Of a stretch of 64,000 bases of DNA, positions 12,343 to 17,955 are shown one piece after another. The DNA lies in contig WFTT01000088.1 in the NCBI GenBank assembly GCA_015485335.1, positions 1 to 64,000 on the forward strand, given 5' to 3'. Under the pieces are notes generated by a model. That model had not been told where the DNA came from and did no database searches. It saw only the letters and a program-made list of their open reading frames with translations. Source of the stretch: Robiginitomaculum sp. (GTDB lineage: Bacteria > Pseudomonadota > Alphaproteobacteria > Caulobacterales > Maricaulaceae). Each line of letters begins with the position of its first letter. The first letter of the stretch is position 1. The position numbers and the translations under genes are program-made.

Positions 12343-12920
12343 GCGGCCACCAGCCGTTCAATGACCCGGGCCAGAAAAGCGGCCAGGTCTGTACCCTGAT
12401 CCGGGCGATAGGTCAGCCGGTCCCGACTGCCAAGGGCAAACAAACCCTCCCGGCCCCGCACCTGGATACGCAACAGCATTTCCGAACTCAGGCCCTCCGC
12501 CTCTTGTCCAAAAATATCGGCCGTATAGGGCTGGCACGGACCAAGACGTTCGCTATGGCCATCCAGCACGCGCAATACCAGGCCTTTGGGGGCCCCCATA
12601 ATGGCCCGTGTATTGTCGGGCGATTGCAAACCCTCCACCAGCACTCGCAACACATCTGCCCCCAGAGAATGGCGCACATGCCCGGCCAGACGCTGATCCA
12701 GCATACCCAGATCGCGGGCATCAACCAGCGCCAGAACAGCCCCGTGAATTTGTGCCGTGCTGGCATGATTGGTACGCATGGTCTGCACCAGGGCATCGCG
12801 TTCCATGGTCAGACGACGCACCTTGCCTTCCAGCCGCAGCTTGGCGGCGCTATCAAAATCTATGATGGATGCGCCCGGATCCTCACTCATGGCAGAATGC
12901 TTTGCCCCGTGCTTTCCCAA
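12327..12920 (-). CDS. DUF484 family protein
   Basis: A 197-residue cytoplasmic protein with an N-terminal coiled-coil-like segment ([20 protein letters not shown]) followed by a GAF-like domain typical of DUF484/YigA proteins. Its function is not established, but the gene is regularly found directly upstream of xerC, as here. It overlaps fsa by 34 bases upstream and xerC by 16 downstream, so the three are likely translationally coupled. Confidence 0.85.
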
Positions 12921-13546
12921 TCTGCCATAAAGGCCGCCAGCCCCTTATCCGTCAGCGGGTGCTTAACCAGCGCCTGCAACACATTGGCCGGAATAGTGGC
13001 CACATCCGCACCCAGCAAAGCCGATTGTTTGACATGCAGTACATTGCGAATTGAGGCTGCCAGAATTTGCGTATCCAGATCCGGGTAATTGTCATAAATG
13101 GTGCGAATTTCGCCGATCAGTTCCATACCGTCCGCGCCTGTATCATCAATACGGCCGATAAAGGGGGAAATATACGTGGCCCCGGCCTTGGCCGCGAGCA
13201 GGGCCTGATTGGCACTGAAACACAGGGTGACATTCACCGGGTGACCATTACCGCTAAGCACATGGGTGGCCTTTAGCCCTTCCCAGGTCAGCGGCACCTT
13301 GACGCAAACATTGTCGGCAATGTCGCGCAAAAACTCTCCTTCCTTGACCATACCCTCGGCATCGGTCGCGGTAACCTCGGCGCTGACCGGCCCCGTGGTC
13401 AGGGTACATATTTCCTTGATGGTCTGCACCAGATCGCGCCCGGACTTGGCAATCAATGACGGATTGGTGGTTACTCCGTCGACCAGCCCGGTGGCGGTCA
13501 TGGCCCTGATCTCGTCCACATTGGCGGTGTCGAGAAAAAACTGCAT
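12887..13546 (-). CDS. fsa: Fructose-6-phosphate aldolase / transaldolase-like protein
   Basis: Class I aldolase of the small transaldolase subfamily (MipB/TalC/FSA). At 219 residues it is about two-thirds the size of classical transaldolase. It begins [14 protein letters not shown], has [16 protein letters not shown] for substrate binding, and carries the Schiff-base lysine in [17 protein letters not shown]. Whether it works as transaldolase or fructose-6-phosphate aldolase in vivo cannot be told from sequence. First gene of fsa-DUF484-xerC, divergent from priA with about 90 bp between starts. Confidence 0.92.
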
Positions 13547-13637: not shown

Positions 13638-15815
13638 ATGTCTGCACCGCTTCTGGCTTCGGTATTGTTTCCGATGCCGGTCCCTGAACCTTTTGATTAT
13701 GAAATCCCGGACACCCTGTCTGTGGATCAAGGCTCCATTGTCTATGCGCCTTTGGGTGCGCGTATGGTTTGCGGCGTCGTGTGGAAGGTTTTTCGCGCTC
13801 AAGAAAAAGATCAGGAACGCACCCTCAAACCCATTGCCAATGTGGTCGACACCCCGCCCTTGCCGGTTTCCTGTCTTGAATTTGTAGATTTTGTCGCGCG
13901 CTATTGCTGTCATCGCCAGGGGGTAGTGTTGCGCATGGTGCTCAGCAGTCCAGAAGCCCTGAAACCTTCACCGGTGCAAACGCTTTATGCCCCCGCGACC
14001 ACCTTGCCTGAAAAAATGACCCCGGCGCGCGAAAAGGTTTTACAGGTCGTCCAAAATGGTTTTTTCAGCATTACCGAACTGGCCCGGCGCGCCCAGGTCA
14101 GCCCCGGAGTGATTACTGCCCTGGCCAAGGCTGGCGGGCTGATCGCCAAGACACAGCCCGTGGACCGGCCCTTTGCCCCGCCCAACCCCGAACGTACCGG
14201 CCTGAACCTAACCGCCTCGCAGCGCACCGCGGCCAGCGACCTGATCAGCCTGACCCGGCAAGACAGTTTTGCCCCGGCATTGCTGGATGGCGTCACCGGA
14301 TCGGGTAAAACGGAAGTTTATTTTGATGCCATTGCCGATGTGCTGTTGCGGGATCCATCGGCTCAGGTGCTGGTACTCTTGCCCGAAATTGCGCTGACCC
14401 AGGATGTCTTGGCGCGCTTTGAACGCCGTTTTGGTGCACCCCCGGCCGAATGGCATTCAGAACGCACAAACATGCAGCGCCGCCGGGTCTGGCGCGAAGT
14501 GACCAATGGGCGGGCGCGCATTGTGGTGGGGGCGCGCTCAGCCCTCTTTCTGCCTTTTGCCAATCTGCGCCTGATCGTTGTCGATGAAGAACATGACAGT
14601 TCCTACAAGCAGGAAGACGGAGTGTTGTATCATGCGCGCGACATGGCGGTGGCCCGCGCCAAATTTGCCGAGGCGGCTATTATTCTGGCCTCGGCAACCC
14701 CCTCCCTTGAAAGCATGCTAAACGCCCGTTCGGGCCGTTATGCCCATGTCCGGCTGCAGGCGCGCCCCGGTGCCGCCGTATTGCCCCCCATCTCAACCAT
14801 CGACATGCGCGAACACCCGCCCGCCACAGGTAACTGGCTGTCCCCCCCGCTGATCGAGGCCATCGAAGAGACCTTGCAACAAAAAGAGCAATGCCTGTTG
14901 TTTTTGAACCGGCGCGGTTATGCGCCCCTGACCATTTGCCGTCATTGCGGCGAACGCATGAAAGCGCCTGACAGCTCCACCTATCTGGTGGAACACCGTT
15001 ATAACGGGCGGCTGGTCTGTCATTTAACCGGCTATTCCATGCCCAAACCAAAGGCATGTCCGGCCTGTGGCACCCCCGACAGCCTGCACCCGGTGGGGCC
15101 AGGGGTTGAGCGCTTGCAGGAAGAGGTTGCAACGCGGTTTCCCGATGCATCGATTGAGATATTTTCCTCGGACAGCACCAAAAATGCCGAGGAGGTCCGC
15201 GCCCTGATTGCCCGCATGGAACAGGGCAAAATCGATATCCTGATCGGCACACAAATGGCCGCCAAGGGGCATAATTTTCCGGGCCTGACGCTGGTCGGGG
15301 TGGTGGATGCCGATATGGGTCTGCATGGAGCGGACATGCGGGCAGGGGAACGCACCTATCAGACGCTAATGCAAGTGGCCGGGCGCGCCGGGCGGGCAAG
15401 CCGGCCGGGCCGGGCCCTGCTGCAAACCCACCAACCGGATCACGAGGCGATATTGGCCTTGTGCTCGGGCGATCGGGAAACCTTTATCAGCGCCGAGCTG
15501 TCTTTGCGCGAAGACATGGGCTTTCCCCCCTTTGGTCGTCTGGCGGCCCTGGTGTTTTCGGCCCCCACCGAACCAGAGGCACAACGGGCAGCGCGTGATT
15601 TTGTGGCCATGGCGCCTCTGGTACAAGGGGTGGATATATGGGGGCCGACCGAGCCACCCCTTAGTCGGGTACGGGGACGTTGGCGGCAAAGATTATTATT
15701 GCGCGCAGAACGTCAGATTGACCTTTCGGCCATGATCAACGCCTGGCGCAGCCGGGTAAACCTGCCGCGCAACATACGCCTCAAAGTAGATATAGATCCG
15801 TATTCGTTTTTATGA
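13638..15815 (+). CDS. priA: Primosomal protein N' (PriA helicase) with a degenerate zinc site
   Basis: Replication-restart DNA helicase of 725 residues: N-terminal 3'-binding and winged-helix regions, DEAH-type helicase core with Walker A DGVTGSGKTEVY (near residue 218), Walker B VVDEEHDSSYK, and the C-terminal helicase lobe (GTQMAAKGHNFPGLTLV, VAGRAGR). The zinc region around residues 435-480 is unusual: the first CxxC (CRHC) and last CxxC (CPAC) are kept, but the second pair reads APDS and the third reads CHLT, so three of eight ligand cysteines are missing. By the known structure this removes one of two zinc sites. The reading frame is otherwise complete. Confidence 0.96.
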   Translation: MSAPLLASVLFPMPVPEPFDYEIPDTLSVDQGSIVYAPLGARMVCGVVWKVFRAQEKDQERTLKPIANVVDTPPLPVSCLEFVDFVARYCCHRQGVVLRMVLSSPEALKPSPVQTLYAPATTLPEKMTPAREKVLQVVQNGFFSITELARRAQVSPGVITALAKAGGLIAKTQPVDRPFAPPNPERTGLNLTASQRTAASDLISLTRQDSFAPALLDGVTGSGKTEVYFDAIADVLLRDPSAQVLVLLPEIALTQDVLARFERRFGAPPAEWHSERTNMQRRRVWREVTNGRARIVVGARSALFLPFANLRLIVVDEEHDSSYKQEDGVLYHARDMAVARAKFAEAAIILASATPSLESMLNARSGRYAHVRLQARPGAAVLPPISTIDMREHPPATGNWLSPPLIEAIEETLQQKEQCLLFLNRRGYAPLTICRHCGERMKAPDSSTYLVEHRYNGRLVCHLTGYSMPKPKACPACGTPDSLHPVGPGVERLQEEVATRFPDASIEIFSSDSTKNAEEVRALIARMEQGKIDILIGTQMAAKGHNFPGLTLVGVVDADMGLHGADMRAGERTYQTLMQVAGRAGRASRPGRALLQTHQPDHEAILALCSGDRETFISAELSLREDMGFPPFGRLAALVFSAPTEPEAQRAARDFVAMAPLVQGVDIWGPTEPPLSRVRGRWRQRLLLRAERQIDLSAMINAWRSRVNLPRNIRLKVDIDPYSFL

Positions 15816-15825
15816 AAAGCGTGGA

Positions 15826-17766
15826 TCAGCCGTTCGCTGCACAATACGGGGTCGGTTCATTGGCAGCCTGACTATGGCTGTTCAGCGCCCCCTTCATGGC
15901 CGCATAGAGACGTTGTGGCTCGATAGGTTTGGCCACATGGTCATCCATGCCGGCGGCCAGATATTCCTGGCGCTGGTGCGGCATGGCATTGGCCGTCACC
16001 GCCACAATCGGCGTTTTGGGCTTTTGCTCGCTGGCTTCGATCTGACGGATTGCCTGGGTGGCCTCGACCCCGTTCATATGGGGCATCTGGATATCCATCA
16101 GTACCAGATCAAAGGGTTGTGCCTGCCAGGTTTTCACGGCTTCTTGGCCGTCCTCAACAAAGGTAACCTCTGCCTTGGCATGGCTGAGAATCGCCTTGAT
16201 CACCATGCGGTTGGTGGGATTGTCTTCGGCAACCAGAATGCGCAAAGCCCGCTTTGCCTTTTTCTCTGCACCGGCTTTATCGGTACTGCTATCTTCAGAA
16301 ACCTGCATATTTTCGGCTTTTTTTACAGAAACAAAAAAGCAGAACTTGGACCCCTTGCCCGGCTCGCTCTTGAGATTGATTTCACCATCCATGCGTTCGA
16401 CCAATTCCTTGCAGATGGCCAGCCCCAGTCCCGTTCCCTGGTGTTCACGGCTCAGCGAGCTGTCAACCTGGGTAAAGCGATCAAAAATACTTTTTTGCGC
16501 CAACAGGGGAATCCCCGCGCCGGTGTCCATTACCGAAACGCTTAGATAGGTTGTTTGCTCATTGTCCGTCTCTTCGGACAGGAATACCTTGATACCGCCT
16601 TTTTGCGTAAACTTTACTGCATTCGACAAAAGGTTGTTCAACACCTGCCGGATCCGGGCCGCATCACCAATAAAGCGCATATTTTCATCAATATTGGTTT
16701 GCACATCAAAGGTCAGCCCCTTGGAACGGGCCGCATGGCCGAACATTTCCAGCGAGGAATGAGAGATTTCACGGATCGTAAATTCAGTATCATGCAGCTT
16801 GAACTCACCAGCCTCGATTTTCGACATATCCAGCACATCGTTTAAAATCGTCAACAAGGCGGCTCCCGATTGCTCGACCACTTCCAGCATATCGCTTTGC
16901 TCTTCAGAAACTTCACTTTGGCCGAGGGCCTTGGTCATGCCCAAAATACCGTTTAGGGGCGTACGAATTTCATGGCTCATCACCGCCAGAAATTCGGATT
17001 TGGCTTTGCTGGCACTTTCCGCCGTATCGCGGGCTTTTTTAAGGGCCTGGGTACGTTCACGTACCCGTTGTTCCAACTTGTCGCGATAGGCCAAAAGCTC
17101 TGCCTGTGCAACGGCCAGCGCCTTGCCGCGTTTTTGCGCATCGCGCAAAATGGCATACCAGATCATGCTGAGCACAATCAGCACCACTACCGCCCCGATC
17201 AACGCCATGCGCGTTGTTTTCTGGGCCGCCACGCGTTGTTGCTCTACATGTGTCCATGTGGCACTCAGCAAATCATCCACGGCTTTGTTATAGGCATCGG
17301 CATTGGCAATATAACGGGGGTCATTGATAATATGGCTTGCCTTGACCGCATTGCCTTTGCGAATTTCGGCAAAAGCCTGGGATTCTGATTGTGCCACCCG
17401 TTGACGCAGTGCACTGGCCCGTGCAGCAGCGGCCTTGACCACCGGGCTGACCGCCAGCTCGCTGGCATCATGAAGGCGCTTTTCCAGTTGTGCACCCAAA
17501 GAACGATAACGGCTTTCCCAACGCCGGTCGCCGCTTTCCTTGGCAGCCCGGATCACAAAACCGCGCTCGCGGTTGATGGAAACCAGATCCCCATGCACCT
17601 GTGCCAGTTGGGCACTGGTATGGGAGGCATCAGCGATATTGATGGCCGCTTTACGTACAGTCAGCCCCAACCCAGCAACCATGGCTATGGTCAAGGTAAC
17701 CGCAAGTACAACCAACGCAGTGCGTGATCGAAATACCGCCAGCTCTGTAATCCGTATGGGAGACAT
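15826..17766 (-). CDS. Hybrid sensor histidine kinase/response regulator
   Basis: Membrane sensor of about 646 residues. A first transmembrane helix lies near residues 10-35, a helical periplasmic region of about 150 residues follows, and a second membrane helix (MALIGAVVVLIVLSMIWYAI) leads into a coiled coil. Then come HisKA with phospho-acceptor in VMSHEIRTPLNGILG, a HATPase domain (DTGAGIP, GTGLGLAI) and a receiver domain with phospho-acceptor Asp in LVLMDIQMPHMNG. An in-frame start at 17820 exists, but ATG 17766 has AGG six bases upstream. No separate partner regulator is adjacent, so the output route is unknown. The gene converges on priA. Confidence 0.92.
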   Translation of the reverse strand: MSPIRITELAVFRSRTALVVLAVTLTIAMVAGLGLTVRKAAINIADASHTSAQLAQVHGDLVSINRERGFVIRAAKESGDRRWESRYRSLGAQLEKRLHDASELAVSPVVKAAAARASALRQRVAQSESQAFAEIRKGNAVKASHIINDPRYIANADAYNKAVDDLLSATWTHVEQQRVAAQKTTRMALIGAVVVLIVLSMIWYAILRDAQKRGKALAVAQAELLAYRDKLEQRVRERTQALKKARDTAESASKAKSEFLAVMSHEIRTPLNGILGMTKALGQSEVSEEQSDMLEVVEQSGAALLTILNDVLDMSKIEAGEFKLHDTEFTIREISHSSLEMFGHAARSKGLTFDVQTNIDENMRFIGDAARIRQVLNNLLSNAVKFTQKGGIKVFLSEETDNEQTTYLSVSVMDTGAGIPLLAQKSIFDRFTQVDSSLSREHQGTGLGLAICKELVERMDGEINLKSEPGKGSKFCFFVSVKKAENMQVSEDSSTDKAGAEKKAKRALRILVAEDNPTNRMVIKAILSHAKAEVTFVEDGQEAVKTWQAQPFDLVLMDIQMPHMNGVEATQAIRQIEASEQKPKTPIVAVTANAMPHQRQEYLAAGMDDHVAKPIEPQRLYAAMKGALNSHSQAANEPTPYCAANG

Positions 17767-17955
17767 TATTCCTGCCCTTTCCCCGCCAAGGGAGGAAAGC
17801 TGACACAAAGATATTAACATTGGGTGGAGCCTGACGATTTATTCTATCTATGCAGTTTCACAGGCCGTTAGTGCAATGCACAGGCAATCATGCTGCCCTG
17901 ACTATCTTGCCCCCCCCTAAAGGGCGTGCTATGCCCCCGCCGGGCTGTGGGAATA

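Follow-up and report, generated by a model that had tools for sequence, protein, structure and literature searches.

One of the two zinc sites in the cysteine-rich region (CRR) of the replication restart helicase PriA has probably given way, long ago and lastingly, to a metal-free core in a group of Alphaproteobacteria that includes Robiginitomaculum sp., the source of the 64,000-nucleotide stretch analysed here ("the window"). Judged by the sequences read, the loss of three middle cysteines of the CRR marks a clade, that of Caulobacter and related bacteria. All eight cysteines had so far been counted as belonging to the core of the enzyme; the Caulobacter-containing clade has lost one set of them and carries a matching substitute. 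The hundreds of PriA sequences in nature that would do without this zinc make its long-assumed need in unwinding testable, and suggest that a metal-pinned part of a protein can hold together without its metal. No description of such a PriA was found in search listings that cover an open-licence part of the literature.

All the whole-protein features of PriA that were tested are present in the window protein, the product of a single open frame (Table 1). It matches the NCBIfam models TIGR00595 (591 bits, cut-off 230.35) and NF004070 (1041.3 bits, cut-off 921), and stays below the own cut-offs of the other NF0040xx subtype models. The Pfam domains PriA_3primeBD, DEAD, Helicase_C and PriA_C all score above cut-off, with 68.0 bits for the 3' DNA-binding domain PF17764 (cut-off 22.7) and 66.7 bits for the C-terminal domain PF18074 (cut-off 26.9). 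In a 70-sequence alignment headed by the window protein, G221, G223, K224 and T225 of the Walker A motif are invariant and S222 almost so, and the DEEH residues are likewise invariant or nearly so. The genome (98.97% complete, 146 contigs) yields one PriA match, that of the window. On one side, priA is flanked by a gene presumed to be fsa; on the other, ATP synthase genes lie beyond a hybrid histidine kinase gene, these being named by inspection. The window protein is a genuine PriA, the CRR of which fails the two-site definition PF18319 (10.6 bits against a cut-off of 26). This model also fails on six of six further proteins with the same loss, and passes on four of four other PriA, one of them lacking a single cysteine.

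Table 1. Features of the priA locus in the window, with residue numbers of the window PriA.
Feature	Positions	Strand	Remarks
fsa (presumed gene name)	12887-13546	-	one side of priA
priA	13638..15815	+	725 aa, replication restart helicase PriA (primosomal protein N'); single open frame
Walker A part GSGKT, residues 221-225	14298..14312	+	helicase ATPase motif, kept
CRR, residues 434-477	14937..15068	+	aligns to the E. coli PriA CRR without gap
First cysteine pair C434, C437	14937..14948	+	retained; codons from 14937 and 14946; intact in 168/168 loss-type sequences
Second pair, A443-P-D-S446 for C-P-x-C	14964..14975	+	lost; A443 at 14964, S446 at 14973
Beta-hairpin between lost pairs, residues 448-462	14979..15023	+	candidate strand-separation wedge; AlphaFold2 strands 451-453, 458-460
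Third pair, C461-H-L-T464 for C-H-x-C	15018..15029	+	lost, C461 kept; C461 at 15018, T464 at 15027
Replacement segment T-G-Y-S-M-P-K-P, residues 464-471	15027..15050	+	conserved in loss type only
Last cysteine pair C474, C477	15057..15068	+	retained; codons from 15057 and 15066; intact in 168/168 loss-type sequences
Hybrid histidine kinase gene	15826-17820	-	between priA and ATP synthase genes; named by inspection

The CRR of the window PriA reads CRHC...APDS...CHLT...CPAC, a pattern given by an earlier sequence-only reading and confirmed here residue by residue. Among the middle four cysteines, C461 alone remains, and the outer four are all present. In the crystal structure of PriA, one zinc is held by the outer pairs and the second by the middle ones; this pairing agrees with a loss that strikes the middle set together and spares the rest. 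The earlier proposal that one whole four-cysteine site is lost and the other intact is supported. The losses are all confined to the middle two pairs and the outer four cysteines are intact in all 168 sequences of this kind, which goes beyond chance. Its claim of a gapless flanking alignment also stands: phmmer aligns the CRR without gap to the PriA chains 8fak, 9zbu and 4nl4 of the PDB, with 'apds' under 'cprc' and 'chlt' under 'chhc'.

The term "loss type" is used for PriA that lack three of the four middle cysteines or, in one family, all four. The class sample comprised 385 alphaproteobacterial genomes, 380 of them with a PriA match, and a part of these matches was fetched and read. In a first reading of 180 loci, 176 were readable (L150, L178, L179 and L180, without a readable region, were dropped); 154 show the full set of eight cysteines, 14 are of the loss type and 8 show an odd single position. 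A further 16 PriA of the class all have eight cysteines. PriA matches are found in 119 of 120 genomes of the window's order, and the 114 that were read (five were not fetched) are without exception of the loss type, lacking the same three cysteines; the losses thus do define a clade, which is the check that the sequence-only reading had asked for. Sorted by family code, the genomes of the class that were read number 301, from 160 families: eight families are loss-type, five of them of the window's order and the others f6, f93 and f118, and none is mixed. In a phylum-wide sample, 40 of 40 PriA have eight cysteines (35 families; 36 genomes from outside the class). Among the best 80 of 587 named records, retrieved with search patterns that favoured the loss type, 45 are loss-type and 35 eight-cysteine. 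The former include, within these best 80, Robiginitomaculum, Caulobacter, Brevundimonas, Phenylobacterium, Asticcacaulis, Hyphomonas, Henriciella, Oceanicaulis, Parvularcula and Marinicaulis, and the PriA of Robiginitomaculum is the nearest named one to that of the window (97%). From these names, the window's order is taken to be Caulobacterales. Loci L290-L305 and L306-L385 were hand-picked from lists. The 168 loss-type and 205 eight-cysteine PriA compared below are sequences, not species, as named records and the numbered G genomes may overlap, and eight sequences with one odd cysteine stand outside both classes.

Other departures were encountered in the course of this reading. In family f42 (L019, L058, L086, L087), four of four PriA lack the third cysteine alone and have an Arg there, within R-[DE]-N-C; the acidic neighbour of this Arg might be a substitute ligand. 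L165, L149, L115 and L146 each depart at a single position: one has Gly for the third cysteine, one has Asp for the fourth together with a long insert, and two are without the last cysteine. In L176 (G304:C3:62198-64645), a single open frame of 829 aa gives four separate PriA matches, which looks like the effect of several insertions.

The loss type may have one to a few origins. A FastTree phylogeny of 256 PriA, computed with the CRR removed, requires three changes, and a more careful tree of 57 rows, also without the CRR, requires four; none of 200 bootstrap trees has a single change. With PriA, one clade of the loss type is rejected (AU p 0.016), and p is 0.456 when the eight-cysteine family f7 is placed inside it. 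The window's order forms one clade (98/98), with f93, f118 and f6 separate, and f6 is sister to f7 (98/96), a grouping that is weaker in RpoB (85). In a quick RpoB tree of 59 rows, one loss-type clade without f7 has a likelihood 24.7 above that of the free search (p 0.818), and one with f7 25.7 above it (p 0.826), so RpoB does not separate the two arrangements. A single origin is compatible with RpoB, and PriA itself suggests at least two changes. All nine sequences of f6, f93 and f118 carry the replacement segment, which favours a common origin, although a shared constraint could also produce the segment. The history may consist of one loss, of two or more, or of one loss and a return in f7, perhaps by recombination. 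The f7 PriA (L052, L290, L291), grouping with those of f6, may represent such a return or a transfer of the full zinc site. The metagenome-like assembly G220 has two full-length rpoB matches (L389, L415) and is possibly a mixture.

The residues that stand in place of the lost cysteines are narrowly defined. Position 443 is Ala, Ser or Thr in all 168 loss-type sequences. At position 446, 159 of them have Thr or Ser, 8 have Ala and 1 has Val; at position 464, 164 have Thr and 4 have Ser. Between 464 and 474, the loss type has fixed G465, an aromatic residue at 466, S467, M/I468, K/R470 and P471; P444, E452 and V/I460 are likewise fixed. The weighted frequencies in this segment are 0.95 for S467, 0.87 for M468 (I 0.13), 0.81 for K470 (R 0.13) and 1.00 for P471; in PriA with eight cysteines, the residues at 467, 468 and 470 are close to random. 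The combination of [ST]467, [MI]468 and [KR]470 occurs in 159 of 168 loss-type sequences versus 6 of 205 eight-cysteine ones. When sites are ranked by their difference between the two types, the three lost ligands come first, and many of the others in the top 35 lie within the same 45 residues.

Some residues of the region might themselves hold a metal. The second site might have been re-formed with C/D461, H462, H453 and E452 as ligands, perhaps with weaker binding or a different metal: of the 168 loss-type sequences, 165 have Cys at position 461 and the other 3 have Asp, both possible ligands, H453 and H462 are invariant, and E452 is found in 165, its weighted frequency rising from 0.72 to 0.98. 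However, the two histidines H453 and H462 are just as invariant where PriA has eight cysteines (0.98 and 0.99) and thus need no new role, and near the lost pairs there is no further invariant column of Cys, His, Asp or Glu, positions 445 and 447 being variable. A re-formed site is therefore unlikely, and the metal-free core is preferred.

The AlphaFold2 model of the window PriA, built on 70 sequences, has a mean pLDDT of 90.1, with values of 81-92 per 10-residue block between 431 and 480, a good model being weak evidence here since AlphaFold2 draws zinc sites as if they were filled. The AlphaFold model of the eight-cysteine L226 is lower over the same blocks (59-82), with 31 sequences against 70; at such unequal depths, this comparison carries no weight. 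In fold searches, the nine best Foldseek rows are PriA chains (4nl4, TM 0.84), the five best VIA rows are PriA as well (Z 34.4, 679 aligned, rmsd 3.4), and beyond PriA other SF2 helicases alone are retrieved. In the AlphaFold2 model, the two lost pairs bracket the short hairpin listed in Table 1. Unwinding by E. coli PriA cannot do without a hairpin in its CRR, which is proposed to act as a wedge (PMC10175261); a figure legend in PMC4129139 also puts the putative wedge in the CRR. The hairpin of the window PriA would be the counterpart of this E. coli wedge hairpin.

With a metal-free core, loss-type PriA would bind one zinc instead of two, and the lost site would be the one at the foot of the strand-separating hairpin. 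There, the two former knuckles may be held together by hydrogen bonds of Ser/Thr and by packing of the aromatic-S-M/I-x-K/R-P segment. Single cysteine-to-glycine changes in this region reportedly gave a helicase-deficient E. coli PriA, going by the title of a 1993 work by Zavitz and Marians. Given that deficiency, full helicase function of the loss type is an assumption, under which it would still be a working restart helicase, operating without PriB, PriC or DnaT. Zinc-binding folds can lose their zinc and be stabilised otherwise, as described in PMC4999995. Salmonella PriA, a zinc metalloprotein, is S-nitrosylated (PMC6094482), and if three thiols and one zinc next to the wedge are gone, restart might be hardened. 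The larger picture, of a half-zinc PriA with its wedge on a metal-free core, of single origin, kept all through a Caulobacterales-like history, with restart hardened against nitrosative and oxidative attack, is doubtful as a whole.

The sequence-only reading had attributed to the missing site a part in primosome contacts, so that partner use might differ, and this is not supported. The PriB-docking residues in the E. coli PriA/PriB/fork structure are Asp438, Ser481, Thr482 and His483 (PMC10175261), and the phmmer alignment places them within the first cysteine pair and directly behind the last, both of which are retained. With the E. coli proteins matched as controls, 115 genomes of the class gave no match for PriC, none above cut-off for PriB (six weak ones below it) and one for DnaT; the window's genome (G000) is among those without a match for PriB, DnaT and PriC, though a strongly diverged protein could escape such a search. 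Partner loss was rejected as a cause: it cannot alone explain a trait of few families, since these proteins are undetected, or nearly so, across a class in which most families have eight cysteines. A change of partner at restart, by which the clade would assemble its primosome differently, might draw on the E. coli system, where the whole CRR docks PriB and gates DnaT (PMC10175261 and PMC13377028), and on a review that connects zinc fingers to partner binding. With PriB contacts that flank a retained pair, and with no match above cut-off for PriB, PriC and DnaT in 115, 115 and 114 of the 115 genomes, mostly of eight-cysteine families, it is nonetheless quite improbable. In Caulobacter, DciA has been shown to be the loader, and joint action with PriA has been suggested (PMC9825169).

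A general sparing of zinc in oligotrophs, with zinc sites shed genome-wide, is very improbable, even if many of the named loss-type members, among the best 80 of 587 records, belong to aquatic genera. The other PriA site is kept in 168 of 168 sequences, and the N-terminal Cys4 motif of RpoC, presumably a zinc ligand set, is intact in 20 of 20 loss-type genomes, the comparison covering the PriA and RpoC sites. On these two sites, both kept, a genome-wide loss was rejected. Four of the 60 RpoC loci had no match. In one non-loss genome (L435, G060), the RpoC start reads EFLCGKY against the usual E-C-x-C-GKY, without the first cysteine.

The CRR itself is well conserved in the loss type. At 60-65% helicase identity, its identity minus the ligand positions is 0.646 in loss-type pairs and 0.550 in eight-cysteine pairs, and it is higher in the loss type in six of seven helicase-identity bins, the pairs being non-independent and partly confounded because one order supplies most of the loss-type rows; in the 80-90% bin, which has 10 eight-cysteine pairs only, there is no difference (0.852 vs 0.853). 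Between the window and L181, a separate record with 97% PriA identity, the 45 CRR codons show eight synonymous and no non-synonymous changes. Between the window and L261, there are 3 non-synonymous to 23 synonymous changes in the CRR and 61 to 152 in the helicase domains. These codon comparisons show the CRR of the loss type to be under purifying selection. The higher conservation in six of seven bins and the mostly synonymous changes argue for replacement and against decay, so that neutral drift of a dispensable second site can hardly be credited, even with Asp in place of C461 in one family (L004, L013, L030). Base errors and misalignment, the former named by the sequence-only reading as what would speak against it, and a second intact PriA elsewhere were rejected and have negligible probability: L181 has identical residues, all 114 PriA read in the order are alike, the alignment is gapless and the genome has a single PriA match.

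In the order of its domains, its helicase motifs, its outer cysteine pairs, the hairpin between the middle pairs and the gapless CRR, the window PriA resembles the eight-cysteine PriA of E. coli and Klebsiella (8fak, 6dgd, 4nl4); it differs from them by the absence of three of the four middle cysteines and the gain of a conserved S-[MI]-x-[KR]-P. A parallel is offered by the U-box, which originated from the RING domain. In the U-box as compared with RING, and in other treble-clef members, zinc ligands have been replaced and the fold is presumably held otherwise, as would be the case in loss-type PriA (PMC4999995). The PriA domain is, however, unrelated to these, one of its two sites is converted, and the conversion is known here from sequence and model. 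The PriA of Deinococcus radiodurans is a pseudohelicase (PMC4504706), and like the loss type it represents a lineage-wide departure from canonical PriA. There, the helicase/ATPase residues were lost, whereas the window PriA keeps those covered by the 70-sequence alignment and has lost a metal site instead.
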